Below, piece by piece: positions 15,564 through 43,033 of a stretch of 50,560 bases of DNA (positions are counted from its first letter, which is position 1; each line of letters begins with the position of its first letter). The notes beneath the pieces are model-generated. The model worked only from the letters and a program-made list of their open reading frames with translations. It ran no database searches and was not told the DNA's origin. Source of the DNA: Nitrosomonadales bacterium (GTDB lineage: Bacteria; Pseudomonadota; Gammaproteobacteria; Burkholderiales; Gallionellaceae); contig CANJMS010000005.1 of the NCBI GenBank assembly GCA_947475825.1, positions 1 through 50,560 on the forward strand. Direction: 5' to 3'. The translations under genes were made by a program, and so were the position numbers.

Positions 15564-17528
15564 CTAGCTGGTCTGCATGCCCTGCCACGCCTGTACCACC
15601 ATTACCATCGCCAGAGTATCCAGTTCGCAATATCGCAGAAGAGCTGAGCAAATTCTTTCCCGAGATCGATCATCCAATTCCTCGAACTGAAGTCGTGCGT
15701 AGGCGGTTGCTGCCGCGCCGCCCTCGGCAATGATGCTGTCATGTCCCTCATCTTCTCTTGACCCACTGGAGATCATGTCTATTGCCAGTTGCTTGAGCTT
15801 GGCATATGGATCGCTGGATGCACCATCCTTTGCAATCTCTATCCAAGCGAAACCATCGGGTGAGCTAAAGTTGCAACTGGATATACCATCAGGCGAGCCG
15901 TAAATCGGCTGACTATATTTCTCGCGCAGCACATCTGAAACCTTGAGAATCGCGGGGAGTACTACTTTGATCGAGTTACCGCCCTTGGTGTCTGGGTGGA
16001 AAAAAGTTTTCTCCGCCATCGTACATAAGTCAACCATCGCACGATCACCACCCTTAATCAGGTGCTTGATGAAAGAGGTCAATGCTTCGGCGTTATCAGG
16101 CCGACTGGTGTCTTCAGCAAGCTGCTCGATGATTTTTGCAAGAATGGTATTTTCGTGGTGGCTCCACATGAACACAGAACCGTTATCTTTATCCAATGCA
16201 TCTTTCAGCGCCTGTGCAAACCGATAATTTGGAAACACACCCGGCTCCACACATAAAAACTGCCCGTCATGCCGCACACTGCCATCGGCCTCCATGATGT
16301 GATGCGAAAACTGGAAAGCCAGCGGTTCGTATGGGCGCATTCCCTTATAAAAAGGCAACGCCACAGTAGAGGTTTCAAAATCAATGAAGTGCAAGGGAAA
16401 GCGCCAGCGTGACATTTCCACCGCAGCTAGAGCACGGTCGAAATAGAAACCACCGCAGTTGTAGGTATCCGGGATGCCGCTCACTTGCAGCCACTGGCGT
16501 TGCTTGCGATTGAGGCCATCCACATTTGACTCATCATCAAACTCACCAATGTCATCGCGTGTGACTTGACTGATTTTTAATACCCCTTGGTCAATTAATT
16601 TCTGCTTGCCATGGAAATTCCACAAATCCAGTACAGTGCCGCCATCGAAGTCTTGATCTCCCCAACCATTTGCCATTTTCCAGCATTCGTGGAACCCACT
16701 CTTGAGCGCATCGCCCGGCGCGGCCTTGAACTGGCATCCGCCACATTGAGCGCCGATAACAGGAACAATGCGCTGATCATTAAGGTAAGCTTCAGCCCAT
16801 GATGCCACAGCATCGCCGAATATGGCCGGGCCACCGGGTAAATCAAGAGGTTGGTTGAGTATCTGCTCGACATAGCGGTCTACACACACCTTGGCTAGTA
16901 GTGTATCTGCCAGCGCCTTCGTATCCATTCCATGTGGGATGCGTACCTCGACATCAGAGTTCTCATTGATCTTGAACATCTGATTTATCCCGTCTACTGG
17001 CGCAAGCTGTGCCTTGTCCGGCATCATCAGTGATGTGGTGATTTGCGCAGCTGGATATGCTTGCCGCAACACCCAGGTCTGAAAAGCGGCATCCTGTATG
17101 TAGGGCAACATCTTGGAATTGATGCCACCACGCTTACCCTCAATATTCGGACTCAGCGAGTTATACGACTTGGCCTTCACTTCAATCAGTTCGAATTGAT
17201 TCCCTGACTTGACTAGCACGTCTATGCGGATAAAAAAATCGCCCACTCGGATAGCCGGTTCGAACAACACCACATTTTCACACCTGAGATATTTTTGGGT
17301 TTGGGCTTCTGCTTCTGCGTGGCTCAACCCCTCGACTTCGATACCGCCGGGATAGCGCAGCTTTGCGAGTGCGCCAACTTGATGTCCTCCCTCTGCAAGC
17401 ATTGCGAGAAAAGCATTCTCGGCCATTGTGTCACGGTATTCTTTGCGCTTGTCGCCGTAAAATAATTTTGTTGGGCAGTCAACCGCGAGCTTGAACCGGG
17501 ATTTGGTCAGGTAGCGAGGCGTTGTCAT
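15564..17528 (-). CDS. DUF2779 protein: RecB/Cas4-like nuclease plus DEDD exonuclease-like domain
   Basis: A 654-residue two-part enzyme. The N-terminal part has a RecB/Cas4-like pattern: C18, H49 (EGGHQVG), D103 (FIRIDVLV) and E116-x-K118 (IEVKAK). C262, C265 and C282 follow, the Cas4 layout of one early and three late cysteines for an iron-sulfur cluster. The C-terminal DUF2779 part has an RNase-H-fold exonuclease outline: D383/E385 in FIDFET, H457/E459 in WSHHEN, D500, and D637 in YCELDTLAMV. It lies 84 bases after the DUF6527 gene on the same strand, so it may be the last gene of the ubiquitin-like operon and its DNA- or RNA-degrading effector. That link rests on position only. Confidence 0.75.
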   Translation of the reverse strand: MTTPRYLTKSRFKLAVDCPTKLFYGDKRKEYRDTMAENAFLAMLAEGGHQVGALAKLRYPGGIEVEGLSHAEAEAQTQKYLRCENVVLFEPAIRVGDFFIRIDVLVKSGNQFELIEVKAKSYNSLSPNIEGKRGGINSKMLPYIQDAAFQTWVLRQAYPAAQITTSLMMPDKAQLAPVDGINQMFKINENSDVEVRIPHGMDTKALADTLLAKVCVDRYVEQILNQPLDLPGGPAIFGDAVASWAEAYLNDQRIVPVIGAQCGGCQFKAAPGDALKSGFHECWKMANGWGDQDFDGGTVLDLWNFHGKQKLIDQGVLKISQVTRDDIGEFDDESNVDGLNRKQRQWLQVSGIPDTYNCGGFYFDRALAAVEMSRWRFPLHFIDFETSTVALPFYKGMRPYEPLAFQFSHHIMEADGSVRHDGQFLCVEPGVFPNYRFAQALKDALDKDNGSVFMWSHHENTILAKIIEQLAEDTSRPDNAEALTSFIKHLIKGGDRAMVDLCTMAEKTFFHPDTKGGNSIKVVLPAILKVSDVLREKYSQPIYGSPDGISSCNFSSPDGFAWIEIAKDGASSDPYAKLKQLAIDMISSGSREDEGHDSIIAEGGAAATAYARLQFEELDDRSRERICSALLRYCELDTLAMVMVVQAWQGMQTS

Positions 17529-17612
17529 TATTATCGAAATCCCCTTGTGGTTTGATTTTCAACACACTACTTCTCCGCAAAGAGCATTACGAATATCAAA
17601 CTTGAATAATTA

Positions 17613-18155
17613 CTATGCAAAAATATTAATGCGGCCCTTTGTATCGGATACTGTTTTTTTGTAGTAATAGCCGCGCTTCTTCCCAGCCGCAGCCTTGTGC
17701 CTACGCACCAATTCATCACACGCCCAACTTACGTCCCATGGTACAACATTTAACATTTCTGCCAATACTTGATAGTCAGTCTCCTCTTCGGGCAGTGCCT
17801 CAAAAACGGTCGTAATCCAATCTTCCGAAACCAGTTCGCTACGCGCTGCACCAAATGCATCACACCATAGTATCTTGTCGTTCCAAACAATAAAGTGTGC
17901 TTTGCAGCCGTCCGTCTTCCATACAGATGGAAACAACGTGATTGCTTCTTTGCGTTTGTAACGCCGCCAAGCTGGGCCACTTCGCTTGTCCAGATTAACG
18001 CTGATAGTCTCCCCGCAACCATCGGGGCACAGAATTAATACCGAACGTGGAATACCTCGCTCAATAGTTACGAAATCACCAGGGTTCTTTAGCAACTGAA
18101 TGCCATCCGCATATCGTTCAGCGGTACCACAACGCCGCATTCTATTAACTCTCAT
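17613..18155 (-). CDS. DUF6527 protein of ubiquitin-like operon
   Basis: A 180-residue protein with a probable zinc site: C43 and C47 (CPDGC), C84 and C98 (DGCKAHF, ILWCDAF), with H87 nearby. It matches what I know as DUF6527, a frequent neighbour of E1/E2-like genes in bacterial ubiquitin-like operons. Its role (target binding, ligase-like or deconjugating) is not settled from sequence. The start at 18155 has GAGGTG 5-6 bases upstream and overlaps the JAB-E1 gene by 11 bases. The longer frame to 18197 lacks such a site. Confidence 0.7.
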   Translation of the reverse strand: MRVNRMRRCGTAERYADGIQLLKNPGDFVTIERGIPRSVLILCPDGCGETISVNLDKRSGPAWRRYKRKEAITLFPSVWKTDGCKAHFIVWNDKILWCDAFGAARSELVSEDWITTVFEALPEEETDYQVLAEMLNVVPWDVSWACDELVRRHKAAAGKKRGYYYKKTVSDTKGRINIFA

Positions 18156-19485
18156 AATCCACCTCGTGAAGTGGGTCGCCGTAATCGCCATTACCAACGA
18201 CGCTTGACGAGCAGAAGGGACAATTAGGTTTAGGTTGGGCTTTAGTTGGCCTCATGGTTGCATCAGCGCCGTAATAATACACATATCGCCCTTTATGCGG
18301 GATTCCGGTAACTGCCGCAAGTGCCATTGTTACGGCAAGTGATGCAGCTGTCGAAGTGAGAGAGATTACGGCTGGTTGTTTTACGGAATTCGAATTCGAA
18401 AAATACGGATCCGCTTGGCGCTGTTCCGGGGACATTAATTCGTACATTATCCGTTTCGCATTTAGGCGCCCCATGCACCATAAACAAGGCAATCCTGGGC
18501 CAATCATGCTCGCTTGTGCGCCATAGATAAGTGGCATCCCGGCGCTTTTTTCTATTACAACACCCATGTCAAAAACTGGAATCATGTATTTGTAGGAAAT
18601 CCGATTAAGCTGATCGCGACTTGCATGAGAGTCGGTGCTGCAAAATATTATGTCCGCATCTACTAACTTCCTCCCCACATTTCGCGTGATCACATCCGCA
18701 CATATAAGCGAAATATGTGGAGTTGGGCGAACCTCTCGTATCACTCGTTCAGCAACCGATATTTTCGTCAGACCGACATCGCCATTGGTTGCACCATAAA
18801 CTCGATTTAGATTGGTTTCATCAATGACATCCCAGTCCACTAGGATATACGAGTCGATACCTAAGCGAGCCAGTTGATACACAAGAGCTGATCCTGTCCC
18901 ACCTAAGCCGACGATCCCAACACGTAGGCGATGCAATCTCTGTTGACCCTCTTCACCAAACGCAAGCACCTGCCGATTATGTTGTTCTTCGAGAAGGATT
19001 GCCTCTCCTGTGTTACAGGCAAACTTGATTTCCTCTCCGACTTCTACTACTCGAATTTTTTCACCGGTAGTCATAACTCTTGCATCAATGCCACCAGTCC
19101 CAATCAGCAAAGATATATGAGGCACGCCCGGACTCCGGTAGCTCATGTATGCGCCAAACTGCTGTTCGGTATTATCATCAACGGATGAAAATACTGGTTG
19201 GCACTCTCTCGGATGGCTATGGCAGTAGATAACAGACCAACCCTTATCCTTTGCACGGCGCTCCAACGGCATTGCGAATTCTGGTGCAAGTCTTACTCTC
19301 GTAGCCGACCGATATGCATGATCACCCTCTGTCGGCAGATGGACTTCACGGACAAGCAACCTAAACCCATCCGTACGAGTTACGGGTGTCGCCAATAAGA
19401 TTGCAGCGCTTTCCATCACCGGCTCCGCCAATAGCTTTTGGCGGAGCCGAACTAGCTCTGGATCACTGAATATTAGATCAATCAT
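18145..19485 (-). CDS. JAB peptidase-E1 (ThiF) fusion
   Basis: A 446-residue fusion. Residues 1-165 form a JAB/JAMM metallopeptidase with E25, H89-S-H91, and S100/S101 then D103 as zinc and catalytic residues. Residues 185-430 form an E1-like adenylating domain with the GLGGTG loop at 193-198, a WDVIDETNLNR motif at 218-228 and two CxxC pairs (C334/C337 and C422/C425) for zinc. The E1 half would activate the Ubl C-terminus with ATP, and the JAB half would trim or remove the Ubl. I cannot point to an E1 catalytic cysteine. Its ATG overlaps the Ubl-E2 stop by 4 bases. Confidence 0.85.
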   Translation of the reverse strand: MIDLIFSDPELVRLRQKLLAEPVMESAAILLATPVTRTDGFRLLVREVHLPTEGDHAYRSATRVRLAPEFAMPLERRAKDKGWSVIYCHSHPRECQPVFSSVDDNTEQQFGAYMSYRSPGVPHISLLIGTGGIDARVMTTGEKIRVVEVGEEIKFACNTGEAILLEEQHNRQVLAFGEEGQQRLHRLRVGIVGLGGTGSALVYQLARLGIDSYILVDWDVIDETNLNRVYGATNGDVGLTKISVAERVIREVRPTPHISLICADVITRNVGRKLVDADIIFCSTDSHASRDQLNRISYKYMIPVFDMGVVIEKSAGMPLIYGAQASMIGPGLPCLWCMGRLNAKRIMYELMSPEQRQADPYFSNSNSVKQPAVISLTSTAASLAVTMALAAVTGIPHKGRYVYYYGADATMRPTKAQPKPNCPFCSSSVVGNGDYGDPLHEVDYES

Positions 19486-20162
19486 TCAACTCGCCCCAGC
19501 CGATCCCGAATCGAGCTCACATATGAAAGCAAATCGTCTGTTATAGGTGACCACGCTTTAACGTGCCAGGAATACCACCGGGATCCTGTCGGCGCAAAAG
19601 GATGCATGTTTCCGGTGTTACTGTTTTTCGGCTCAACGCCTCCTATCGTTCGCAAGTCTTCTGACCAAAAACAATCTGGCGTTGAAGACGGGTAACCGGC
19701 AGGCACGATAAACCATACCGATGTTTTGTTCTTATTCCAACCAGCCGGTAGGTCAATTTCTGGGATATGTACGCTAAACGTCTGCGTGTCCTGAATAGTT
19801 TGTATGGTCGCATTGGTATAGCGGGCAGTTAAGCGAGTAACATGCTTCTCAAGGGTGCTCCCTGATGGCAGCTCAAAACCAAAATCAGCATTTGGCCGAC
19901 AATGAAAATGTTTTGGGACATTTTCTTCGCGGCCATGTGTTAAATCAACTGGATCGTTATCCCCAATCGGGCGGTCAGCTTCATCACCATGCCCTTCAAG
20001 AACCAATGTGTGGGCTGGATCAATGGTCTTCCCCGCGCCACGGACAGCCTCTTTAATTTGCGCCCCTGTTAACACGGCTTGATTCACATTGATTTTTTCA
20101 CCCACGAAAAAGAAGAACAGGTTAGGATGGGTATCATTTTCTTTAATATTTTCGGAAGTCAT
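19482..20162 (-). CDS. Ubiquitin-like (multiubiquitin) domain fused to E2-like domain
   Basis: A 226-residue protein. Residues 14-90 match the bacterial multiubiquitin domain: FFFFVGEKINVNQAVLTGAQ, then LVLEGHGDEADRPIGDND and a closing KHFHCRP. Residues 92-222 match a prokaryotic E2-fold domain: FIVPAGYPSSTPDCFW, then GNMHPF, WYSWHVKAWSP and a last helix LLSYVSSIRDRL. Only two cysteines exist (C88 and C164), and none lies at the usual E2 active-site place just before WSWH-like residues. The C-terminus has no Gly-Gly, so any conjugated Ubl must be cut out or act as a fusion. First gene of the operon; AAAGGAAA stands before the ATG. Confidence 0.8.
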   Translation of the reverse strand: MTSENIKENDTHPNLFFFFVGEKINVNQAVLTGAQIKEAVRGAGKTIDPAHTLVLEGHGDEADRPIGDNDPVDLTHGREENVPKHFHCRPNADFGFELPSGSTLEKHVTRLTARYTNATIQTIQDTQTFSVHIPEIDLPAGWNKNKTSVWFIVPAGYPSSTPDCFWSEDLRTIGGVEPKNSNTGNMHPFAPTGSRWYSWHVKAWSPITDDLLSYVSSIRDRLGRVE

Positions 20163-20200
20163 TGTTTTATTTCCTTTAAGTAGTTATTTAAGCCATCTAA

Positions 20201-20285
20201 TGCATATAAAAAGTATATGTATCTAGCTCTAGGTTCGCATGGTAATATGAGCATATAAACTATGTCAATATACTTTTTATGCTGA
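20201..20285. promoter_or_regulatory. Divergent promoter with inverted operator-like repeats
   Basis: The 135-base gap between the Ubl operon and the WYL gene holds GCATATAAAAAGTATATG (20202-20219) and its near mirror CAATATACTTTTTATGC (20266-20282). A second imperfect palindrome runs from AGCATATAAA (20250) to TTTTTATGCT. On the minus strand TTGACA (20263-20268) is followed 17 bases later by TTACCA, a strong -35 with a weak -10 for the Ubl operon. Operator palindromes in such gaps are typical of CapW/BrxR-type WYL repressors. Confidence 0.6.
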
Positions 20286-20297
20286 CAAAAGGAAGTC

Positions 20298-21158
20298 ATG
20301 GAAAAACCAAATAGGGCATGGAGTGTCGAAGCAAGACTCAAATTTATTGAGTTCAGGCTTTACTGGGAAGGACGTATCAACCGTGGAGATTTGCAAGGCC
20401 ATTTCGGAATATCAACACCGCAGGCATCGCTCGATTTGAAGGCATATACTGAAATAGCACCGAATAATTTATTTTACGATAAGCAACGAAAAGCGTACTT
20501 TGTGACGGATTGTTTCAAGCCAGTATTGATAATACCGAACGCAAAAGATTATCTGACACAGCTTGAATTGATAAGTGCAGAAAATAGTAGCCCCTTTTCG
20601 CACACATCTTTTATCGGAGAAAAGCCAAGCTTTGATGTCACTCAATTACCTCACAGAGTTGTAGATGCTGAAACGTTAAGGTCAATTCTTCGCGCAATTA
20701 ATGAAAATAAGGTTCTTGAAATTCAATACCAATCAATGACTCGCCTTGAACCAATGTGGCGGTGGATTGCACCCCACGCTTTAGCATCAGATGGTTTTCG
20801 TTGGCACATACGTGCTTACTGTTTCGAGAAAAATAAATTCATCGATTTCGTGTTTGGACGAATACTTGCTATCAGAGCAGAAAAGAATAGTGAAATTGTC
20901 ACATCGACTGATTTGGAATGGAACAGTTGGCTGGAACTCAATATTGGACCCAATCCGGCGCTTTCAGCAGCGCAGAGGAAAGGGATTGAACTGGATTATG
21001 GAATGTGTGAAGGAACTACGAGTCTTGTGATACGAGAGGCGTTACAGCACTATGTCAAAAAACAACTGGGTCTAGATAAAATAATACCAGAGGGTGAGGT
21101 TGCTCCAAAAAATCAACACATATGCTTGATTAGTGAAAAAAGGATAACACCAAGTTAG
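20298..21158 (+). CDS. WYL-domain transcription regulator (CapW/BrxR-like)
   Basis: A 286-residue regulator. Residues 5-75 form a winged helix (ARLKFIEFRLYWEGRINRGD, then GISTPQASLDLKAY). Residues about 125-195 form the WYL sensor domain (VLEIQYQSMTRLEPMWRWIA, FRWHIRAYC, FIDFVFGRILAI). The last 80 residues are the WCX-like tail. This layout is that of CapW/BrxR, homodimeric repressors that hold defence operons silent until a ligand appears. It is divergent from the Ubl operon across a gap rich in inverted repeats, so it probably represses that operon. AAAGGAAG stands before the ATG. Confidence 0.85.
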   Translation: MEKPNRAWSVEARLKFIEFRLYWEGRINRGDLQGHFGISTPQASLDLKAYTEIAPNNLFYDKQRKAYFVTDCFKPVLIIPNAKDYLTQLELISAENSSPFSHTSFIGEKPSFDVTQLPHRVVDAETLRSILRAINENKVLEIQYQSMTRLEPMWRWIAPHALASDGFRWHIRAYCFEKNKFIDFVFGRILAIRAEKNSEIVTSTDLEWNSWLELNIGPNPALSAAQRKGIELDYGMCEGTTSLVIREALQHYVKKQLGLDKIIPEGEVAPKNQHICLISEKRITPS

Positions 21159-21226: not shown

Positions 21227-21853
21227 TTAGATCATGCCACGCTCGGCAAAGCTCATTGTCTGATTGCCTGCCACAACAAAATGATCCAGTACGCGCACGT
21301 CAACCAGTGCCAAAGCCTGTTTTAATGCATCAGTTAACATGCGGTCGGATTGGCTCGGCTCGGTTACGCCGCTTGGGTGGTTGTGGGCTAATATTACCGC
21401 TGCCGCATTGTGCTTTAGTGATGCTTTCACGACTTCGCGGGGGTAGACGCTAGTCTGCGTCAATGTGCCTCTGAAAAGCTCATCGGAAGCAATGACACGG
21501 TGTTGCGCATCCAAAAAAATTACCACAAAACTTTCGAATTCACGGCCTGCAAAATGCATTTTCAGATAGTCGCGGACTGCCTGCGGTGCATTCAGCGAAG
21601 CACCGGCCATGATTTCTTCGTTGAGCCAGCGGGTCAGCAATTCACGGGCAACCAGACAAATTTCAGGAGCTTGGTCTTTAAACACTGCATTGAGGCTTCC
21701 GGCGTAAATTTTTTTTGCTTCTCTCACGCCTAACAGTTTTCCAAGAAGTTCGAGGTCGGAGTATTTTTTAACATCGGGTTGGTGAGTCTCGCGGTGCGCG
21801 AAGGGCGCGGTTTGTTTGGTTTGATTTCCGGATTGATTATTTAGCGTAGTCAT
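21227..21853 (-). CDS. radC: RadC-family JAB protein
   Basis: A 208-residue protein with the RadC metallopeptidase-like core: [20 protein letters not shown], then [20 protein letters not shown] and [14 protein letters not shown], which holds the HxH-S-D zinc set. Plasmid RadC copies lack the N-terminal helix-hairpin-helix of chromosomal ones, as here, and are usual among anti-restriction genes. Their biochemical role is not established. The start MTTLNNQSG at 21853 is preferred; a frame to 21946 has a basic, unlikely extension. A copy of the 77-bp shared element lies about 310 bases upstream. Confidence 0.85.
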
Positions 21854-22544
21854 GATGTTTTCTTTCGTTTTGTGGTTGTCATCGGTTCGGCGTTGCCTCA
21901 CCCGAAAGGTGGAAACTGACTGCGCTTTGACGTGGGCAATGGACATGACACAAACGGGGGAGGGGTGCGGCCAGCGCGGAATGCAATGAGCACTGCCACG
22001 GTCGCCTGGACTGTTGGGGCAATTGCGCTTCTTACACGTCTGTAGGCAGTTGAAGCCGGGTGACGCTGAAAAGATGATTACAAAAAGGAAGGTGGAATAC
22101 GCTGAATGGTTTTCGATCTGGAAAGCAAATGCTTCGAAGACTTTGGATTTAGTTTGCTGTTAAGGGTGTGACTGCACGACGTTTGCGCCGTTGTTGACCT
22201 TGCTTATGACGTTCTGGCCGTGATGCTCGAAGAGCCACAACTAATACACTAGCATGGGCGGGTGCCTTGCGATTCACTTTGCAGGCGCATGACCGTGCGG
22301 TCAACGAAGTGTGGTGTTATTGTGCCAACCATGTCACGCCCCAGTATCCAAGATTGCCCTTGGATACATATTGACTGGAACGCAAAGGGGGGAGGGGGAA
22401 AATCTATTGCTTTGATTTGTTATGTAGTGGAATTGACACAGCGCAGCGTTATCCACCGCATGGTATTCTTGCATATCGCTCTCAACATCTGATAGGGGTT
22501 GCTATGTTTTATTGCCGCGAGCTGAAAATATGGGCAGGTAGAAA
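21854..22544. other. Gene-free stretch upstream of the RadC-like gene
   Basis: No gene is supported in these 690 bases. They contain copy C of the 77-bp element (22165-22241), a G-rich run near 22384-22400 and presumably the promoter of the lipoprotein gene. The 76-codon frame at 22262-22492 looks random in composition. Confidence 0.5.
22165..22241 (-). promoter_or_regulatory. 77-bp shared upstream element, copy C
   Basis: Same 77-base block as 12360-12436 and 28901-28977, differing at about three bases (TGCTTATGAC instead of TGCTTGTGAC; CCACAAC at the end). Here the surrounding 580-bp repeat is absent, which marks the 77 bases as the conserved core. Confidence 0.7.
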
Positions 22545-25043
22545 ATGAATCTATTGAAAAGCCTGACTCAACATCACTCCCCCAAGCTCCGCAATAGCCT
22601 GCTTGTTGTCGCGACTTTATTGCTCTCTAGCTGCGGAGGCGGCGGGGGCAGTAATAGCGGAACGCCGGCACCCGCAACACTTACCAGCATTGCCATCACC
22701 CCTGCCACGGCGACGGTTGCCAACGGCCAGATCACCCATTTCACTGCCACCGGCACTTACGCTAATGGCACAACTGCCAACATCACCAGTCAGGTTGCTT
22801 GGGCATCTGGCAACATAAGTATCGCCACGATCAACAGCACCACCGGTGTCGCCACTGGTATTGCCGTGGGGAGCACTACTGTGACCGCCTCAGCTAACGG
22901 CATTACCTCGCCCACTGCCAACCTGTCCGTCACTGCGACGGTGATGATTGGACTCAGCGTCAGCCCGATAGCGCCTTCTACCCCCAAAGGCACGCCCGTC
23001 ACGTTCACCGCCACGGCTACCTATTCGGATGGCAGCACCGGCAACGTGTCGGGATCGGTGACTTGGGCATCCAGCAACGCAACGGTGGCAACGCTAAATC
23101 CCAGTGGTATTGCCTCCACCTTGGCGCAAGGCAACACCACCGTCACCGCATCAGCTAACGGCATTACTTCTAACGATGCCACATTGACTGTGACCGCGCC
23201 GGTGTTGGCTGCCATCGCCATCAACCCGGCCACCGCCTCTGTGGCAAAAGGGCTAACAACCAACTTCACTGCCACCAGTACCTACTCCGATGGCACCACT
23301 GCCAACATCACCAGCCAAGCAAGCTGGGCATCGGGCAACATAAATATCGCCACGATCAACAGCGCCACCGGCATCGCCACTGGCGTTGCGGTGGGCAGCA
23401 CCACGGTGACCGCTTCGTTGAATGGCATTACCTCGCCTACCGCCAGCATGACGGTCACGACAGCGACGATTACTGGAATCAGCATCAGCCCGATAGCGCC
23501 CTCCACCCCAAAAGGCGTGTCTGTTACATTCACCGCCACGGCTACCTATTCGGATAGCAGCACTGGCAATATTTCTGGATCAGTGACTTGGGCATCCAGC
23601 AACGCAACGGTGGCAACGCTAAATCCCAGTGGCATTGCCTCCACCTTGGCGCAAGGCAGCACCACCGTTACCGCTTCGTTTAATGGCGTTACCACCAACA
23701 GTGCAACCTTGACCGTGACTGCACCTGTGTTGGCTGCTATCGCGATCACGTCGAGTACCTCATCGGTGGACATTGGAACCACGAATACTTTCACCGCCAC
23801 CGGCACTTACACCGATGGCAGCACTGCCAACATCACCAGCTTGGTGACTTGGGCATCCAGTAACACCACAGTTTCCACGATCAACACCAATGGTGTTGAA
23901 ACCAGACTGGCGCAAGGCGTCACCACTATTACTGCCTCGTTAAACGGTATCACCTCCAACAGTATTACCTTGCGAACTCTAATGGTTGGGGCAGGACCCA
24001 CTCACACCATGGCGCTCAAAGCTGACGGCACGGTTTGGATGTGGGGATATAATTACCAAGGCCTACTGGGTGATGGAACCACGACGGATCGCCATAGCCC
24101 GCAGGCAGTGCCGGGACTCACTGGTGTGGTGTCCTTGACGGCAAAGGGGCGTGGCTCTCACACTGTGGCGCTCAAATCCGACGGGACGTTAGTAGCGTGG
24201 GGATGGAATCTATACGGCCAACTGGGCGATGGAACCACAACGTCCCGCTCAAGTCCTGTGGCAGTGCCGGGACTCACCGGCGTGGTGGCGGTGGGGGCGG
24301 GTTACTATAACACCGTGGCGCTCAAATCCGATGGCACGGTTTGGTCGTGGGGATACAACCAATACGGCCAACTGGGCGATGGAACCACAACGTCCCGCTC
24401 AAGTCCTGTGGCAGTGCCGGGACTCACCGGCGTGGTGGCGGTTGCGGTGGGAAGTGGGTACATCATGGCGCTTAAATCCGATGGCACAGTGATGGCTTGG
24501 GGATATAACATCCAAGGACAACTGGGTGATGGGACTACGACGAATCGTACAAGTCCGGTGGCAGTGCCGGGTCTCACTGGAGTGGTGGCGGTAGCGGCAG
24601 GCGATAATCACACCGTAGCGCTTAAATCCGATGGCACGTTAATGGCGTGGGGATATAATTACCAAGGCCAACTAGGTGATGGAACCACGACGGATCGCCA
24701 TAGCCCGGTGGCAGTGCCGGGTCTTACTGGAGTTGTAGCGATGGCAGCTGGTTACTATAACACTGTGGCGCTCAAATCTGATGGTACGGTGATGGCGTGG
24801 GGTTATAACAACTCCGGCCAACTGGGTGATGGAACCACAGGGGCACCCGCCTGTCTTTGTCGCGCAAGCCCGCAGGCAGTGCCGGGACTCACTGGTGTGG
24901 CGGGAGTGGGGGTGGGTGATTATCACACCGTGGCGCTCAAGTCCGACGGTACGGTGGTGGCGTGGGGAGTTAACGGCTTCGGCCAACTGGGCGATGGCAC
25001 GACGACGGATCGCTTGAGTCCGGTGAGTGTATTGGGATTTTGA
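22545..25043 (+). CDS. Large lipoprotein: five Big domains plus RCC1 propeller
   Basis: An 832-residue exported protein. The signal peptide ends in a lipobox LLLSSC at about residues 25-30, then a GGGGG linker, so it should be a lipid-anchored surface or periplasmic protein. Five bacterial Ig-like (Big_2) domains of about 86 residues follow; domains 1 and 3, and 2 and 4, resemble each other most, pointing to duplication of a two-domain block. Seven RCC1 repeats of about 50 residues follow (HTVALKSDGT, AWGYN, GQLGDGTTT, AVPGLTGV), exactly enough for one seven-bladed propeller. Adhesion or ligand binding is likely; the ligand is unknown. An insert in repeat 6 carries two cysteines (APACLCR). 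Confidence 0.85.
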   Translation: MNLLKSLTQHHSPKLRNSLLVVATLLLSSCGGGGGSNSGTPAPATLTSIAITPATATVANGQITHFTATGTYANGTTANITSQVAWASGNISIATINSTTGVATGIAVGSTTVTASANGITSPTANLSVTATVMIGLSVSPIAPSTPKGTPVTFTATATYSDGSTGNVSGSVTWASSNATVATLNPSGIASTLAQGNTTVTASANGITSNDATLTVTAPVLAAIAINPATASVAKGLTTNFTATSTYSDGTTANITSQASWASGNINIATINSATGIATGVAVGSTTVTASLNGITSPTASMTVTTATITGISISPIAPSTPKGVSVTFTATATYSDSSTGNISGSVTWASSNATVATLNPSGIASTLAQGSTTVTASFNGVTTNSATLTVTAPVLAAIAITSSTSSVDIGTTNTFTATGTYTDGSTANITSLVTWASSNTTVSTINTNGVETRLAQGVTTITASLNGITSNSITLRTLMVGAGPTHTMALKADGTVWMWGYNYQGLLGDGTTTDRHSPQAVPGLTGVVSLTAKGRGSHTVALKSDGTLVAWGWNLYGQLGDGTTTSRSSPVAVPGLTGVVAVGAGYYNTVALKSDGTVWSWGYNQYGQLGDGTTTSRSSPVAVPGLTGVVAVAVGSGYIMALKSDGTVMAWGYNIQGQLGDGTTTNRTSPVAVPGLTGVVAVAAGDNHTVALKSDGTLMAWGYNYQGQLGDGTTTDRHSPVAVPGLTGVVAMAAGYYNTVALKSDGTVMAWGYNNSGQLGDGTTGAPACLCRASPQAVPGLTGVAGVGVGDYHTVALKSDGTVVAWGVNGFGQLGDGTTTDRLSPVSVLGF

Positions 25044-29586: not shown

Positions 29587-30192
29587 TTGAGAATAGACTT
29601 GCCCCCATACAACGCTGAAATTTCTGCTGGTTCTCTTATGTTTACTGAGAGCAGGCGAATTGCATTATTGCTTCTGACGCATCCATCAACTCAGGAATGG
29701 GATCATGCTTTAAAGATTGAGAATATATTGCAGAAAAAAACTCCCGCTACGGCTTATCGGCAGGCTAATTTGATTAGAAAACGCCTGATGATGCTAAACG
29801 AGGAGGCGTGTAAGCTGATTGGCCAAGGAGACTTTGAAATTGCTACGCAGTTACTGTTGGCTGCCGCGATTAAGCATAGCCGCTTGCTTGGAGATTTTCT
29901 TCGAGACGTTTATGCCCGACAACTTCGCCGGATGGAATTAGCTCTGAATAGCAATTTATGGGATGCATTCTGGGTGGAGTGTGCGCACCGTGATGGTGAA
30001 ATCGAGCACTGGTCTGCATCCACAAAAGAAAAACTTTACCAAGTCATTATCCGAATACTGGTCGAAGCAAAATACCTTGATTCCAGCAGAAAATTGAACA
30101 TGACCCCACCCAATCTGCATCCGACTGTCGTCTCTTTTCTAAAACAGCATGGCGAGCTTGAGGTTCTCGCGGCCATGAAGGTATCGCGATGA
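29587..30192 (+). CDS. brxA: BREX protein BrxA
   Basis: A 201-residue DNA-binding protein of type 1 BREX. The start of the fold is typical (YNAEISAGSLMFTESRRIAL, then LLLTHPSTQEWDHAL). No ATG suits the full domain: the frame is open from 29554, and the best start is the TTG at 29587. An ATG at 29638 would lose 17 conserved residues. It is the first gene of the BREX operon and overlaps brxB by 4 bases. The weak start codon and poor ribosome site suggest low expression. Confidence 0.88.
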   Translation: MRIDLPPYNAEISAGSLMFTESRRIALLLLTHPSTQEWDHALKIENILQKKTPATAYRQANLIRKRLMMLNEEACKLIGQGDFEIATQLLLAAAIKHSRLLGDFLRDVYARQLRRMELALNSNLWDAFWVECAHRDGEIEHWSASTKEKLYQVIIRILVEAKYLDSSRKLNMTPPNLHPTVVSFLKQHGELEVLAAMKVSR

Positions 30193-30764
30193 GTACATTT
30201 GAAGAGCGCTTGAATCAGATTCTTCCGCGACTCACCTCGAAGGAGCTATTAAACAACCATGGGCTGGGGAATGAAATCGGCTTTTGGGTGTTTGATTACC
30301 CGCCCGAGTTTGAGCTGGAAATGCGCGCGTTTCTGAATGAAGTCATTGAGCCTGCCCTTGCCAAGCATCACCCGCCGATTCGATTTGCCACGGTGAATCT
30401 TTTTGACTTGGCGATTGGTGTGTTGGAAGAACGCAATCTGCTCGATAAAGCGCTTGATATGCAGCAAACACAAGGCGATACCAAAGCACTTGAATCCATG
30501 CGGCGTGTTCTGAAAGAGGATAAATTGGCAGAACGTCTGGTTGCTCAGATTGATGTCGATAATCAAGACTTGGTCATTCTGACGGGTGTCGGGTCAGTCT
30601 TCCCTATTCTGCGCACACACACTTTGCTTTCGGCTTTGCATCCGTTGATGAAAGACACGCCTTTGTTAATGCTGTATCCGGGCAAATATGACGGCCACTC
30701 TTTCCGCCTGTTTAACAAACTTTCCGAAGACCACTATTACCGCGCTTTCCAGCTGGTATCCTGA
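30189..30764 (+). CDS. brxB: BREX protein BrxB
   Basis: A 191-residue DUF1788-type protein of type 1 BREX, needed for defence and probably part of the complex with PglZ and PglX. Recognisable stretches are NEIGFWVFDYPPEFELEMRA, then LVILTGVGSVFPILRTHTLL and PLLMLYPGKYDGHSFRLFN near the C-terminus. The ATG overlaps the brxA stop as ATGA. Confidence 0.9.
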   Translation: MSTFEERLNQILPRLTSKELLNNHGLGNEIGFWVFDYPPEFELEMRAFLNEVIEPALAKHHPPIRFATVNLFDLAIGVLEERNLLDKALDMQQTQGDTKALESMRRVLKEDKLAERLVAQIDVDNQDLVILTGVGSVFPILRTHTLLSALHPLMKDTPLLMLYPGKYDGHSFRLFNKLSEDHYYRAFQLVS

Positions 30765-30790
30765 CGCGCATTCAACATAGGGCAAAAAAT

Positions 30791-33700
30791 ATGAAAATCA
30801 GGGAGCTCTTTAAGAAACCAATCGACCGGCCAATCAACGGCGTGATTAAGGCCGATCAGCGAGATGCCGAAAGCATTTGGCAAGAGTTGGACGAATACGT
30901 CGTCACCAAACAACTGACCGAATATTTCCGCCGATTTTTTGATGCGTTTCTGGCTGCAGCTGATAATCCAAAAGACCCGGTAGTCTCGTCGCGCATGGGC
31001 GTATGGGTTTCGGGGTTCTTCGGCTCAGGTAAATCTCACTTCATCAAAATCCTGTCCTACCTGCTGGAAAACATCGAAGCGGTTGATCCAAAAACCGGCA
31101 TCCCTAAAAAAGCGGCAGCCTTCTTTGATGAGCACAAAATCAAAGATGCCTTGCTGTTGGCCGACATTCAGCGTGCGGCAAAGGGTAGCTCCGATGTCAT
31201 TCTGTTCAACATCGATGCCAAGGCCGACAGCAAGTCTGATCGGGATGTAATTCTCCAGGTATTCATGCGAGTCTTTAATGAAAAGCTCGGCTACTCCGGC
31301 GATGCGCCACACGTTGCGGAAATGGAACGATACCTGGTCGGCAAGGGCGCTTATGAAGCGTTCAAAGCGGCCTTCCAGGAAAAAAACGGCTCGATCTGGA
31401 ACAAACAGCGTGACGCCGTTGATTTTCTGCGCGATGACGTGGTATGTGCCTTGGCCAAGGCGCTCAACATGACGGAAGAGTCTGCCGGGCGCTGGTTCGA
31501 TAAATCCCGTGATGACTACAAAATCAATATCGAGGGCTTTGCCAAGCTCATCCGTGATTATCTCGACACCAAACCAGCGGGGCACCGTGTCATCTTTTTG
31601 GCGGATGAGGTCGGTCAGTTTATTGGTGACAACACCCAGCTCATGCTCACCCTGCAAACCATCACGGAGCAACTTGGCACGTTATGCCAAGGACGCGCAT
31701 GGGTTATCGTGACCAGTCAGGAAGACATTGACGCTGCCATTGGTGAAACGAACAAGGCCAAATCACAAGACTTTTCCAAGATTCAGGGACGTTTCCACAC
31801 GCGGCTATCCCTGGCCAGCTCCAATACTGACGAAGTGATCGGCGAACGCCTGCTGTCCAAGACACAAGCGGCACACGATGCGTTGCGCGATTGCTTTGAG
31901 AAACAAGGCGACATCATCAACAACCAATTGGCTTTTGTCGGTAACTCGGTCTCGATGCGCAGCTACAAGGATGCGGCAGAATTCGTAGCTTGCTATCCGT
32001 TTGCCCCATACCAATTCACCTTGCTGCAAAAGGTCTTCGAGTCCATTCGCAAGGTAGGCGCAACCGGCATGCACCTGTCCAAAGGCGAGCGCTCATTGCT
32101 GGATGCATTTCAGTCTGCCGCCGTGCGCAATGCGGAGCGCGGTATTGATGTGCTCGTGCCGATATACGACTTTTATCCCTCCATTGAGAGTTTCATCGAC
32201 ACCAGTGCCAAGCGCTCGATTGATGAAGCGCCTACCAATCCATCGCTTGAGCCATACGATGTTCAACTGCTCAAGGCGCTGTTCCTAATCCGCTATATCC
32301 CTGACATCATCAAACCCAACGTCGATAATCTGGCGACGCTCTGCGTGGATCAGATTGATGCTGACAAGCTGGCACTCAAACGCAAAATTCAAGAAAGTCT
32401 GACTCGTCTGGAGCATCAGCGCTTGGTCAGCCGCAACGGTGATCTCTGGTCATTCCTGACCAATCAGGAACGCGATGTGGCGCGCGAAATCGCCCATGAA
32501 GCAGTTTCAGCCGTTGAGAAGTCTCGGTTGCTGAGTAACTTGATCTACGAAGAAATTCTGGGCGACATAAGCAAGATTCGCCACCGGGGAACCAAGAGTG
32601 ATTATGAGATTAACCGCCTGCTGGATGGCGCGCCCTGGAAAAATGCCAACCACGAACTCTCTCTGGAAATCGGCACCCCGTTAAGCGACGACTACGAGGC
32701 CTTGAATGATGCCAAAGGAATTCTGCGGAGTGCGGATCGTGCCCTGATCCGCATGAAAGAGAGCAACCGTCTGGACATTGAGTTGACCCTTTACCTGCAA
32801 ATCGAGAAATATATTGATAGCCCCAAGGGCAGTTCCGCTGCGGCGCCTCTCAAACGTATTCTTGCCGACCGCAAAGATGAAAACCGCGAACGTAAAACCC
32901 GTTTGATTGAGCAGCTCAGCACGGCCTTGGTCACCGGCGACTGTTACGCCCTCGGCCAAAAGTTGCCCTCCAAGTCCGCAGCTCCCTCTACGCAAGTGGA
33001 TGAGTTGGTCAACTACCTCATCTCCAACACCTATACCAAACTGTCCTACCTCAAGGTGCGCCAAATCGAACCGATTGCCGAAATCAAGGCCATTTTAACG
33101 GCGGACAATATCGGTCAAAGCGCATTTGTATTGGGCGGAGAAGAGGGCAACCCGCTGGCGCTCAATGAAATGCGCGAATACCTCCAGCTCAAAGCCAGCC
33201 AGAGTCGCGTGTTACTCTCGGAAGTGGTTGAGCGATTCAGTGGCGCACCTTGGGGTTGGAAGCCCGAATGGGAGGTGGTATTGCTCATCGCGCGGCTGTT
33301 TATGGCAGGTGAAATCAAACTCATGCTCGAAGGCTCCGACCTCGAACCCAAGAGTGCGATTGATCCACTCACCAAATCCGTCCGTTTCAAACAAGTTTCC
33401 ATCCTCAAGCGCAAATCTGCCGATGCTGCTCAGCTCAAGCGCGCGCGCGATCTTCATAAAGAACTATTCTCCAAGTTGGGCCGGGAAGAAGAGGATGGAC
33501 TGGTTGCAGATTTCCGGGGCAATCTCAGCCAATGGCAAGCCGAGTTGAAGGAGTTCTCTCATACGGCTACAGCCAAACACCACCCCGGTAAGCAAACCAT
33601 AGATCAAGCCCTGTTGCGGATTGCCAAACAACTGGCGGTTCGCGACTCCTTTGAATTCGTCGAAGCAATCTTGGCGGATAAAGAGGCGTGGAAGGATGTA

Positions 33701-34414
33701 TCGGAAGACATTCACGACCTCACCAGCTTTTACAAGAATCAAATCGCCATATGGCGGCGAATGCTGGAAGCCCTGCAACGCTTCGAGCCGAACCGCCCCG
33801 CGCTGATAAAAGAGCCTGTAGCAGCAAGTGCCTTGCAGCAATTAGCCGCCATTCGAGACAATTCGGCTCCCTATCAGCAAGTCAATCAGATCGAGGCGTT
33901 GATCCAATCCGTGGAAGCGGTGAACGCCAAACTGGTCAATGCCAAGCGTGAACATGCCTTGCTTCTGCTGGAAAAGAAGATTGTCGAGGTCAGCCAGGCA
34001 CTGGATCAGGCACACGCCCAGCCTGACTTACGCAATCGTGCTTTACATTCATTGCAACAAATCAAGATCGACATCTCAGCGCAGACCAGCATCCCGCAAA
34101 TCAATTATTTGCAGGAGCAGTCTGGCAATGCGCTGGATAGTGCAATGGACATGATTAGTATTGCCGTGAGTGCCGCAGCCAAACCGCAGCCGCTCGCCGT
34201 AAAAGCCGCCGGCGATAACCCCACTGTTATTAACCTCGGTGCGTCGCAAACAACTCAAACGGTCGCACCCAAACCCGCCAAGGTGATTCGCGCCGCCGAT
34301 CTATCCAGCAAATCCTATCTGGAAACTGAGGCCGAGGTGGAGGAATACCTGGCGAAGCTCAGGGCTGAACTGCTTGCCGCGATCAAGGCCGGACAGCGTG
34401 CGCGGATACAGTAA
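30791..34414 (+). CDS. brxC: BREX ATPase BrxC
   Basis: A 1207-residue AAA-type ATPase of type 1 BREX. The P-loop GFFGSGKSHFIKIL lies at about residues 75-88, followed by a long helical region with FLADEVGQFIGDN as the likely Walker B area. Length is normal for BrxC. It probably powers the BREX complex in host methylation or phage exclusion. A 74-base gap with an AT-rich promoter-like stretch follows, before the AbiE-like pair. Confidence 0.92.
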   Translation: MKIRELFKKPIDRPINGVIKADQRDAESIWQELDEYVVTKQLTEYFRRFFDAFLAAADNPKDPVVSSRMGVWVSGFFGSGKSHFIKILSYLLENIEAVDPKTGIPKKAAAFFDEHKIKDALLLADIQRAAKGSSDVILFNIDAKADSKSDRDVILQVFMRVFNEKLGYSGDAPHVAEMERYLVGKGAYEAFKAAFQEKNGSIWNKQRDAVDFLRDDVVCALAKALNMTEESAGRWFDKSRDDYKINIEGFAKLIRDYLDTKPAGHRVIFLADEVGQFIGDNTQLMLTLQTITEQLGTLCQGRAWVIVTSQEDIDAAIGETNKAKSQDFSKIQGRFHTRLSLASSNTDEVIGERLLSKTQAAHDALRDCFEKQGDIINNQLAFVGNSVSMRSYKDAAEFVACYPFAPYQFTLLQKVFESIRKVGATGMHLSKGERSLLDAFQSAAVRNAERGIDVLVPIYDFYPSIESFIDTSAKRSIDEAPTNPSLEPYDVQLLKALFLIRYIPDIIKPNVDNLATLCVDQIDADKLALKRKIQESLTRLEHQRLVSRNGDLWSFLTNQERDVAREIAHEAVSAVEKSRLLSNLIYEEILGDISKIRHRGTKSDYEINRLLDGAPWKNANHELSLEIGTPLSDDYEALNDAKGILRSADRALIRMKESNRLDIELTLYLQIEKYIDSPKGSSAAAPLKRILADRKDENRERKTRLIEQLSTALVTGDCYALGQKLPSKSAAPSTQVDELVNYLISNTYTKLSYLKVRQIEPIAEIKAILTADNIGQSAFVLGGEEGNPLALNEMREYLQLKASQSRVLLSEVVERFSGAPWGWKPEWEVVLLIARLFMAGEIKLMLEGSDLEPKSAIDPLTKSVRFKQVSILKRKSADAAQLKRARDLHKELFSKLGREEEDGLVADFRGNLSQWQAELKEFSHTATAKHHPGKQTIDQALLRIAKQLAVRDSFEFVEAILADKEAWKDVSEDIHDLTSFYKNQIAIWRRMLEALQRFEPNRPALIKEPVAASALQQLAAIRDNSAPYQQVNQIEALIQSVEAVNAKLVNAKREHALLLLEKKIVEVSQALDQAHAQPDLRNRALHSLQQIKIDISAQTSIPQINYLQEQSGNALDSAMDMISIAVSAAAKPQPLAVKAAGDNPTVINLGASQTTQTVAPKPAKVIRAADLSSKSYLETEAEVEEYLAKLRAELLAAIKAGQRARIQ

Positions 34415-34488
34415 AAGGTTAATTTGCGCTATGAATAAATATACTTAAGGGGTATGATTCTGCATGAAACGTAAATGAGGAAACATTC

Positions 34489-35121
34489 ATGAGCACTCAA
34501 CTTTTAGCGCAGGTAAAAGTATCGCCCCTTGCACGACACCTTCGTGCCGGAAAAGTGTATCGCCGCGAAGACCTCGCACCTTATTCAACCAGCGTCGACC
34601 GGGAGCTACAGCAACTGGTTGCCGCTGGTCGTCTGACCAAGGCTGCGCAAGGGTTGTATTACGCTCCGAGAAAAAGTGTTTTCGGTGATGCACCACCAGC
34701 CGAAGAAGAAATGCTGGAGGCATTTCTAAAAGATAAAAATTTTCTCAGTTTTAATCCCAGCGTCTATAACTCGCTACGCTTGGGCATGACCCAGCTTTAC
34801 AATAAAACCATCGTTTATAACCACAAGCGCCATGGGAAATTTCGCCTTGGCAATCGCGAGTTTGATTTCCGCGTCAAGCATCGATTCCCTCTGACCAATC
34901 AAGTGACCAGCGAATATCTGTTGGTCGATATGCTGAACAATCTTGATGAGCTGGCAGAAGACGAAACTCAGGTGTTGGCTACTGCGCGTCGCAAGCTGGC
35001 ACAATTTGATGCAAAGAAACTGCAAAAATCCTTGCAGGATTACGGCTCTGCCGCAACCCGTCGCCTGATGAAAAGCTGGCTGAATGACTTGGCCGTGACT
35101 AAACCCGAGCCTGCTAAATGA
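34489..35121 (+). CDS. AbiEi-like antitoxin (DUF6088-type)
   Basis: A 210-residue protein with an N-terminal winged helix (GKVYRREDLAPYSTSVDREL, then RLTKAAQGLYYAPRKSVFG) and a C-terminal domain of about 130 residues, the layout of AbiEi/DUF6088 antitoxins. It would repress its own promoter and counter the NTase toxin. GAGGAAA stands before the ATG. The gene lies within the BREX operon, between brxC and pglX, and overlaps the toxin gene by 4 bases. Confidence 0.75.
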   Translation: MSTQLLAQVKVSPLARHLRAGKVYRREDLAPYSTSVDRELQQLVAAGRLTKAAQGLYYAPRKSVFGDAPPAEEEMLEAFLKDKNFLSFNPSVYNSLRLGMTQLYNKTIVYNHKRHGKFRLGNREFDFRVKHRFPLTNQVTSEYLLVDMLNNLDELAEDETQVLATARRKLAQFDAKKLQKSLQDYGSAATRRLMKSWLNDLAVTKPEPAK

Positions 35122-36068
35122 AGGCCACTGGCTTTTTGCATGAACATGAGGGTTTTCTTGTTCTTATCGAGCAGATTGCAGACGCACAGAACATTGCGCC
35201 ACCACTGATTGAAAAAGACTACTGGCTGATGCATTGCCTGTGGGGTTTGCAACAACAAGGCTGGAAATTTGAACTGAAAGGCGGCACATCACTTTCCAAA
35301 GGCTATCAGCTCATCCACCGTTTTTCGGAAGACATTGATATTCGTTTCGAGCCGCCCGCAGAGCTTGGCGTTAAAACTGGAAAAAACCAGGATAAGCCCG
35401 CTCACCAAGAATCTCGTCGTGAGTTCTTCGATTGGCTGGCTCATCAGATAAAAATTCCCGGACTGAAATCAATCACGCGCGACACCGACTTTGACGATGC
35501 CAAATATCGCAACTGCGGCATCTTGCTCAATTATCCCATTCTGACATCGTCGTTACCGGGCGTGAAAGACGGAGTCCTGCTTGAAGTCGGCTTCGACGAC
35601 ACCGCCCCAAACCGCCCGTGTACCATCTCCTCGTGGGCGCTGGATGCCGCCTTTAAAGCGAAAGTCGCGGTCATTGATAATCGGGCAGTGGATGTTGCCT
35701 GCTACAGCCCCGCTTATACCTTTGTCGAAAAATTGCAAACCGTCTCGACCAAGTTTCGGATGCAGCAGGAAAGCAGCACGTTTCCGAAAAACTTCATGCG
35801 CCATTATTACGACCTCTATTGCCTGCTCGATAGCCCTGAAGTGCTGAACTTTATCGGCACACCGACTTATCTCGCCCGCAAAATAGAGCGCTTCCGTTTC
35901 GGCGATAATCTCGATATCGCCAGTAACGAAGCCTTTCTGTTATCCGATCCCAAAGTGCGCAGCCTGTACGAAACCAAATATCGCGAAACCGAAGCGCTGT
36001 ATTATACGGGGCAGATTCCTTTCAGCGACATTCTCGCCCGCATCCATCAGCATATCGGGCAGCTATAA
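35118..36068 (+). CDS. AbiEii/AbiGii-family nucleotidyltransferase toxin
   Basis: A 316-residue protein of the NTase superfamily. The hallmark motifs are present: IEKDYW at 31-36, GGTSLSKGY at 55-63 and the metal-binding SEDIDI with D72 and D74. AbiEii-type toxins transfer nucleotides to tRNA and stop growth, giving abortive infection. It is coupled to the AbiEi-like gene by an ATGA overlap, and pglX starts 6 bases after its stop, so it is expressed with BREX. Confidence 0.82.
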   Translation: MKATGFLHEHEGFLVLIEQIADAQNIAPPLIEKDYWLMHCLWGLQQQGWKFELKGGTSLSKGYQLIHRFSEDIDIRFEPPAELGVKTGKNQDKPAHQESRREFFDWLAHQIKIPGLKSITRDTDFDDAKYRNCGILLNYPILTSSLPGVKDGVLLEVGFDDTAPNRPCTISSWALDAAFKAKVAVIDNRAVDVACYSPAYTFVEKLQTVSTKFRMQQESSTFPKNFMRHYYDLYCLLDSPEVLNFIGTPTYLARKIERFRFGDNLDIASNEAFLLSDPKVRSLYETKYRETEALYYTGQIPFSDILARIHQHIGQL

Positions 36069-36073
36069 CCAGA

Positions 36074-39619: not shown

Positions 39620-40410
39620 TGGGACAGAAGATCAATCAGCTCAAACGTCGACGAGCCGCTCGCAAAGAACTTGCTGAACTTTTTGAACGAGCATCAGGAG
39701 TTGTGGTTGTCCATTACTCCTGCGAGAGTTTTTACGACAGACAAGATGGCTCATCACCACGCGTCACATCGATAGCCGTCCGAAACATGGATACTGGGCA
39801 AACGAAATCATTCTCAATCCATCAGATGGCAGAGAAGAAGAAAATCGCATCCGACCAGATCGTTGAACAGTTTGGCGATCTCGAAAAACGGATGCTCAAC
39901 GAGTTCTTTGAGTATGCCAAGACTCATCAGCGTAGCCAGTGGCTGCATTGGAATATGCGTGACATTAATTATGGGTTTGCCGCGCTAGAACACCGATGCC
40001 AAGTGCTGGGGGGTACGTCAGTGGAAATACCGGAAGAAAATCGGCACGACCTCTCCCGAATTCTCATCTCTCTATACGGGGTTGGATACACTGGGCATCC
40101 ACGCTTGGAAAGTCTCATGGCTAAAAATAAAATCACCTCCCGTGATTTTCTGGTTGGTGCAGATGAAGCGAAAGCTTTTGAAAACGGTGAATATGTGAAG
40201 CTTCACCAGTCCACCCTCAGAAAAGTGGACGTGCTCGCAAATATCGCGGAGCGGGCGGAAAACGGCACTCTTAAAACCAACGCAACCTGGTGGGAGATTC
40301 ACGGCGGCACCATAGCGGCCGTCGGTGAATGGCTGCGAGAACATTGGATTATTAGTGTCATATCGGCAATAGGCACGGTAGGTAGTGCCATTTATAAATT
40401 CATTCCATAG
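39619..40410 (+). CDS. Unknown BREX accessory protein with C-terminal membrane anchor
   Basis: A 263-residue protein between pglX and pglZ. A basic N-terminus is followed by a domain with strands GVVVVHYSCESFYD (27-40) and VTSIAVRNMDTGQT, then a helix ending in WLHWNMRDINYGFAALEHR (108-126). The order loosely recalls RNase-H-fold DEDD exonucleases, but the acidic set is incomplete. Residues 241-262 form a membrane segment (WIISVISAIGTVGSAIYKF). Its ATG shares one base with the pglX stop, and pglZ follows after 10 bases, so it is part of the operon. It may be a membrane-bound sensor or effector. No family name is claimed. Confidence 0.6.
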   Translation: MGQKINQLKRRRAARKELAELFERASGVVVVHYSCESFYDRQDGSSPRVTSIAVRNMDTGQTKSFSIHQMAEKKKIASDQIVEQFGDLEKRMLNEFFEYAKTHQRSQWLHWNMRDINYGFAALEHRCQVLGGTSVEIPEENRHDLSRILISLYGVGYTGHPRLESLMAKNKITSRDFLVGADEAKAFENGEYVKLHQSTLRKVDVLANIAERAENGTLKTNATWWEIHGGTIAAVGEWLREHWIISVISAIGTVGSAIYKFIP

Positions 40411-40420
40411 GGGTTCATAG

Positions 40421-43030: not shown

Positions 43031-43033
43031 GAA

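Follow-up and report, generated by a model that had tools for sequence, protein, structure and literature searches.

We analyzed positions 1 to 50,560 of contig CANJMS010000005.1 (forward strand; assembly GCA_947475825.1), a stretch of 50,560 nucleotides referred to below as the window, from a Nitrosomonadales bacterium of the family Gallionellaceae. It contains an operon for a ubiquitin-like protein (Ubl) and its conjugation enzymes, of the kind called Bub, together with a gene for a DUF2779 nuclease and a divergent gene for the repressor CapW. On balance, and with modest confidence, we favor the view that this is a Bub operon of type 6e whose lineage lost a TCAD9/APH kinase-like gene and gained the DUF2779 nuclease, that a single CapW operator governs the locus, and that the nuclease acts as its effector. 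Judged from the sequence, we conclude more firmly that the locus is a nuclease-carrying Bub variant under predicted CapW control, a verdict that does not extend to any action of the Ubl on the nuclease.

The operon lies on the minus strand and comprises a Ubl-E2 fusion (positions 19482–20162; E2 of BubB type), a JAB-E1 fusion (18145–19485; BubCD type), a DUF6527 protein (open frame 17613–18197) and, after a gap of 84 bases (17529–17612), the DUF2779 protein of 654 amino acids (15564–17528). The gene for CapW, a WYL-domain repressor, is on the plus strand (20298–21158), divergent from the Bub arm and separated from it by an intergenic control region (20163–20297). This is the arrangement that an earlier, sequence-only reading of the same DNA had described, and open frames and Pfam matches agree with it: PF14462 in the Ubl-E2 fusion (1.7e-9), PF00899 in the JAB-E1 fusion (8.2e-36, with PF14464 at 4.3e-4, below cut-off), PF20137 in the DUF6527 protein (1.8e-16), PF11074 in the DUF2779 protein (1.8e-23) and PF13280 in CapW (4.9e-11). 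The Ubl-E2 and JAB-E1 frames overlap by 4 bases. The overlap of JAB-E1 with DUF6527 depends on the start that is chosen, amounting to 53 bases from a TTG, 11 from the likelier ATG at 18155 (the start suggested by relatives) and 0 from an ATG at 18140. A site scan of the 84-base gap turned up neither a terminator-like nor a promoter-like site on the minus strand. This counts for little, since the scan's totals for the region as a whole were 5 promoter-like sites (shuffles 9.0) and 7 terminator-like sites (shuffles 5.7).

The case for an exchange of genes comes from the E1 phylogeny. The window and a second locus, L181, are sisters in the E1 tree (support 93/82) within a clade of 28 rows, 26 of which carry a kinase-like gene of about 500 amino acids with matches to TCAD9/APH phosphotransferases and an HGDLH...N...IDF motif; the window and L181 do not. 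Two further loci, L038 and L074, join this pair with support of 99/99, and in both the kinase-like gene stands after DUF6527 (as the next gene in L038, with a small extra Ubl gene between in L074), the same side that DUF2779 occupies in the window. That extra gene (L074, 11841–12098) is a second Ubl gene, besides the Ubl that precedes the E2. A tblastn search for remnants of the kinase-like gene found none in the window, its best match (E 0.039) lying at a distance from the operon. DUF2779 is present in both of the kinase-less rows of the clade and in none of the 26 kinase-bearing rows (Fisher p 0.0026), a value to be taken as a guide only, the two positive rows being kin and the kinase-less locus L058 being uncounted.

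The 28-row set omits L046 (a near-copy of L044), L165 (the same sequence as L059), L116 (a very long branch) and L058, which has a truncated E1, lacks DUF6527, the kinase-like gene and DUF2779, and fell inside the clade in an earlier tree; L182, which is the same contig stretch as L045 and comes from genome G1233, is likewise outside it. The matching group of that earlier tree, built before L181 was added, held 30 rows; the kinase-like gene was present in 27 of them and absent from three (the window, L058 and L116). L035 is absent from the E1 tree set and present in the DUF2779 profile search. Across the whole E1 set the kinase-like gene occurs in 27 of 94 rows, and of the 67 remaining rows the window alone has DUF2779. 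We therefore claim the exchange for this one clade only, because outside it the kinase-like gene is mostly absent and DUF2779 does not stand in its place.

The sequence-only reading had named, as one ground on which it would fail, that DUF2779 homologues never neighbor such operons; the pairing in fact recurs in the sister locus L181, and the idea that it is unique to the window was dropped once L181 proved to carry the same set. There, the Ubl-E2 fusion, JAB-E1 and DUF6527 genes lie on one strand, and the divergent capW gene, followed by DUF2779, lies on the other, with the first ATG of DUF2779 33 bases after capW. The two CapW proteins are 61% identical, and the palindromic intergenic stretch is kept at 24 of 30 bases, which none of 200 base shuffles reached. 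Among the 28 clade rows, an in-frame fusion of Ubl and E2 occurs only in these two loci (the L074 row of this check picks up the second Ubl and was cross-checked against a separate comparison of the Ubls). A candidate fusion in a 346-amino-acid frame of L056 was discarded, its Ubl lying in another frame.

The two nuclease genes have separate histories. The window's DUF2779 groups with L150 and L151 and that of L181 with L031, and a single inherited gene was rejected, the sister grouping receiving an approximately unbiased (AU) test p-value of 5.7e-39 over 17 rows (the test omits L155, L156 and two short forms). Because the two genes are not sisters, the sequences indicate that two recruitments, or one recruitment and a later replacement, brought DUF2779 into one and the same Bub lineage, which is kinase-less and linked to CapW. 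It occupies the end of the Bub arm in the window and the position behind CapW in L181, in both cases inside the CapW locus.

The regulator, which had been called CapW/BrxR-like from the sequence alone, matches the CapW of S. maltophilia (7tb6) at 1e-53 and BrxR at 1.6e-42. Residues R32, S42, Q45 and S47 of the S. maltophilia protein, described as the sites of mutations designed to break DNA binding, align with R29, S39, Q42 and S44 of the window protein. Its sequence identifies the regulator as CapW, a known partner of Bub, and the combination of core and CapW as a kind already known. The intergenic region contains promoter-like sites and an inverted repeat (20250–20263/20270–20283) within the stretch common to L181. 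Two minus-strand promoter-like sites (20268–20239 and 20288–20259; consensus matches that are no commoner than in shuffles) lie beneath the repeat, which overlaps the better site at its −35 box and the other at its −10 box. A palindrome in this position counts in favor of the sequence-only interpretation. A pattern built from the window and L181 sites found no second copy of the operator-like stretch in either. CapW relatives are described as being released by single-stranded DNA (PMC13373217).

The proteins of the operon assign its core, on sequence grounds, to a known kind, the type 6e operon now called Bub. In sequence searches of the Protein Data Bank (PDB), the best match of the JAB-E1 protein is Citrobacter BubCD (8.4e-70, profile A1) and that of the Ubl-E2 protein is Citrobacter BubB (6.5e-12, profile A4), which occurs in two entries also containing BubCD; this homology upholds the proposal of a ubiquitin-like conjugation operon. 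The JAB residues E25, H89, H91, S100 and D103 are all present. The E2 domain has no conserved active-site cysteine and carries an invariant serine in its place, a correction to the sequence-only reading. S198 and W204 are each conserved in 93/93 E2 rows and H200 in 92/93, and the S-x-H part of the S198-W-H200 motif is also kept in BubB. Because these residues are so widely kept, the E2 probably works through serine.

The Ubl part of the fusion belongs to the multiubiquitin family (PF14452, 3.9e-4, below cut-off). It ends ...NADFG at residue 95 and runs straight into the E2, and its terminal DFG lines up with the free Ubls, whose ends in this clade read PPATFG, or nearly so, plus 0–4 residues. 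Conjugation of the Ubl would require a cut after Gly95, for which the JAB domain is the obvious predicted candidate.

The DUF6527 protein contains a conserved C-x3-C ... C-x2-H set (alignment of 13) that probably binds metal. In its model (pLDDT 81), the C/C/C/H set lies in a beta-rich domain, after which comes a winged helix; the C-terminal part resembles winged helices including Zalpha, with E-values of only 0.013 and up. A tandem pair of DUF6527 genes ends the Bub operon in L059 (12946–14060) and L045 (12817–14049).

We take the DUF2779 protein to comprise an N-terminal Cas4-like PD-(D/E)XK region with four cysteines and a C-terminal DEDD 3'-5' exonuclease-like domain. Twelve residues (C18, D103, E116, K118, C262, C265, C282, D383, E385, D500, Y633 and D637) are invariant in 13/13 aligned long forms, and the window protein has the catalytic residues of both domains and the four cysteines. 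The family has been classed as RNase H-like family F.17 and, with DUF83, as PD-(D/E)XK-like, with predicted 3'-5' exonuclease activity. Near-full-length members are rare: at E <= 1e-30 they turned up in 8 of 399 genomes at the level of the order, counting the window's own, and in 3 of 398 at the level of the phylum. In L151 (8446–8685) and L153 (2696–2800; a weak match, E 0.001) the full gene is accompanied by a short additional piece similar to the DUF2779 C-terminus.

The pairing of Bub and DUF2779 genes is unusual, as the sequence-only reading had supposed. An E1-alignment scan of genome contigs gave at least 250 confirmed relatives, the best 80 of which were taken as loci; DUF2779 was near none of these other 80 by tblastn and profile search. 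Many loci end at contig ends, so that absence here and below refers to the available flanks. Conversely, apart from the window and L181 there were 19 long-form DUF2779 loci, and none of these had Bub genes nearby (the flank of L147 is only 3.3 kb, and those of the short-form loci L121–L131, at about 1 to 1.5 kb, are uninformative on neighbors). Six plasmid loci and seven stretches from genomes of the class or family (L165 being the sequence of L059) showed no further pairing. E1 matches occur in 81 plasmid records (E <= 1e-20) and DUF2779 matches in 9 (E <= 1e-10); with 40 of the 81 E1 records listed, the pairing was in none of the seven plasmid Bub loci and two plasmid DUF2779 loci viewed. 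Phage records contained no match to E1 (E <= 1e-10) or DUF2779 (E <= 1e-8). Viral contigs yielded seven relatives with the E1 profile, the best at 33% over the E1 part, and no match to the Ubl-E2 profile.

Ubl-E2 was chosen as the family-wide probe because the E1 probe was swamped by short ThiF/MoeB-like matches; the Prok-JAB profile failed to pick up even the window's own gene when genomes were probed with it. Matches of the Ubl-E2 type were found in 4 of 158 family genomes, namely the window's, G1238 (the source of L181), G1233 and G1162, the last two of which retain the kinase-like gene and have no DUF2779. An order-wide search with the Ubl-E2 pair found 3 of 240 genomes, including the window's. 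The other two supplied L186 and L187, distant Bub-type loci (E1 identity 28–30%) that have neither DUF2779 nor the kinase-like gene.

In the mechanism that we propose, CapW would silence the locus in calm cells from the palindrome that separates capW from the Bub arm, and single-stranded DNA produced by damage or phage attack would free CapW and allow expression. Cleavage of the Ubl-E2 precursor behind Gly95 would fall to the JAB domain, and adenylation of the Ubl end so released to the E1 domain; the E2 would hand the Ubl on via Ser198 instead of a cysteine. The Cas4-like/DEDD nuclease would be an effector of the same burst, in the role of the relatives' kinase-like protein. The sequence-only reading had gone further, and its overall interpretation stands only in part: the conjugation operon, CapW, the defense island and the rarity of the pairing are supported, and control of the nuclease by the Ubl or E2, like a phage trigger, has found no support. 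The most far-reaching view, in which the kinase-like partner was exchanged for two DUF2779 genes in two genera and the Ubl pathway activates or restrains the nuclease, so that damage would lead through CapW release to Ubl-controlled destruction of nucleic acid, is in our judgment tentative and rather doubtful.

The main rival explanation is that DUF2779 is a co-regulated passenger, an independent defense nuclease expressed from stress-responsive WYL promoters and biochemically unlinked to the Ubl; we regard this as a serious possibility, if short of an even chance. Several observations bear it out or otherwise weigh against the scheme that we favor. DUF2779 genes adjoin WYL genes in loci without Bub (L158, L175), and elsewhere neighbor BrxL (L132, L175), SbcCD (L173, L174) and AbiEii (L159), which suggests that the family may be a general guest of defense islands. 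In L181 the nuclease gene stands outside the Bub arm, trailing capW. In the window its GC content at third codon positions (0.54) is unlike that of the Bub genes (0.43–0.45) and of capW (0.35), a contrast suggesting that this copy probably arrived later. Across the wider E1 set, a missing kinase-like gene does not in itself predict DUF2779, and most kinase-less Bub loci outside the clade have no such nuclease. Two sub-cut-off matches elsewhere in a TCAD9 search of the window's own genome leave some room for a kinase-like partner supplied in trans. The AlphaFold model of the DUF2779 protein is poor (pLDDT 49.5; weak matches to RNase H and RNase T, best E 0.02), and with no PDB sequence match either, its predicted fold could not be confirmed structurally. 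Finally, the pairing is known from two loci, which are related to one another, and all of the evidence is of sequence. Against a mere passenger, all 26 clade rows with the kinase-like gene lack DUF2779 in their available flanks, even though seven have CapW next door, and within the clade the nuclease gene is confined to the two rows without the kinase-like gene.

Several of these DUF2779 loci have features of their own. On contigs from the viral collection, long-form genes lie close to BrxL in L132 (9959–11941) and L175 (7995–9977), where in L175 one gene intervenes between the two and DUF2779 also follows the WYL regulator. In L173 (4728–9992) and L174, DUF2779 immediately follows genes that by eye resemble SbcD and SbcC, and its frame is split in L174.

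A narrower form of our preferred explanation makes the nuclease itself the target of the pathway, with the Ubl conjugated to DUF2779 as an on/off switch. The gain of DUF2779 as the kinase-like gene was lost would fit such a relationship, as would the precedent described for type II CBASS, in which a co-encoded enzyme, the cyclase, is conjugated; we nonetheless think it unlikely, since relatives have the same E1 and E2 without any DUF2779. That the genes are chance neighbors in a defense island, with no shared regulation or function, is improbable. The island does hold BREX, AbiEii and RadC genes as well, but the recurrence of the pairing in a sister locus with a separate DUF2779 lineage already weakens this explanation, as do its absence from the 80 other E1 loci (best 80 of 250) and the lack of a terminator-like site in the 84-base gap. 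Least probable of all is a catalytically dead E2 fold that only binds the Ubl, with no conjugation: Iyer et al. (2006; PMC1779556) describe such cysteine-less type 6e domains as likely inactive, whereas the near-invariant S198, W204 and H200, and the S-x-H kept in BubB, fit a serine nucleophile.

The setting of the operon is a defense island, in line with the earlier expectation. A BREX locus (29587–45070), about 8 kb from the Bub operon, contains BrxA, BrxC, AbiEii, an Eco57I-type methylase (PglX by position), PglZ and BrxL; a DUF6088 (below cut-off)/AbiEii pair sits between BrxC and the methylase, and a KAP ATPase follows BrxL. Adjoining capW is a RadC-type JAB gene (21227–21946), relatives of which are also near other Bub and DUF2779 loci (L048, L059, L186 and L030). 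Beyond it, positions 22545–25043 encode an 832-amino-acid protein with a lipoprotein-like start and then Ig-like and RCC1-like repeats (read by eye).

Among characterized systems, Bil (BilABCD) and type II CBASS share the E1, E2 and JAB logic of the window operon. PADLOC models match only the E1 part (best E1-E2 1.3e-15; BilD 4e-4), and no PADLOC model matches the Ubl-E2, DUF6527 or DUF2779 proteins of the window. Conjugation by Bub has reportedly been observed by Ye et al. in 2026. The closest known relatives are the Bub operons, the JAB-E1 and serine-motif E2 of the window being clear homologues of Citrobacter BubCD and BubB (PDB 9ea4, 9ea5, 9eae and 9eav); the window differs in having Ubl and E2 in one frame, in the presence of DUF2779 and in the absence of its clade's kinase-like gene. 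The type 6e operons of Iyer, Burroughs and Aravind (2006; PMC1779556) are described as combining a polyUbl, a cysteine-less E2-like fold, a JAB-E1 and a C-x3-C metal-binding protein, with a Ubl-E2-like fusion noted in some species. The C-x3-C protein is shared with the window as DUF6527, the second pair there being C-x2-H, and the main text of that paper never uses the word 'nuclease'.

In the open-licence literature searched, DUF6527 was not named, no link of DUF2779 to Bub or to defense was found (judged by titles and the starts of abstracts), and no nuclease was tied to multiubiquitin, Prok-E2, BilABCD or Bub operons among the top matches listed. The arrangement of capW also sets the two loci apart, since in the window and L181 it is divergent from the operon, whereas seven other CapW-Bub loci have the gene upstream and on the operon's own strand; in the CBASS cases described, the CapW palindrome overlaps the −10 site, compared with the −35 and −10 boxes here.

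Bub structures have been deposited in the PDB; according to a 2026 paper (PMC13373217), Bub has no demonstrated defense function or phage resistance. An exchange of an operon gene for a nuclease would point to a role of Bub in nucleic acid transactions and name a candidate target or effector, and the compact CapW-linked locus with its fused Ubl-E2 precursor brings putative processing, activation, transfer and effector steps together in one system. CapW, or CapH with CapP, has been recorded with 219 of 544 Bub operons (PMC13373217); the pairing of CapW with Bub is thus already in print, and the DUF2779 nuclease is the new part.

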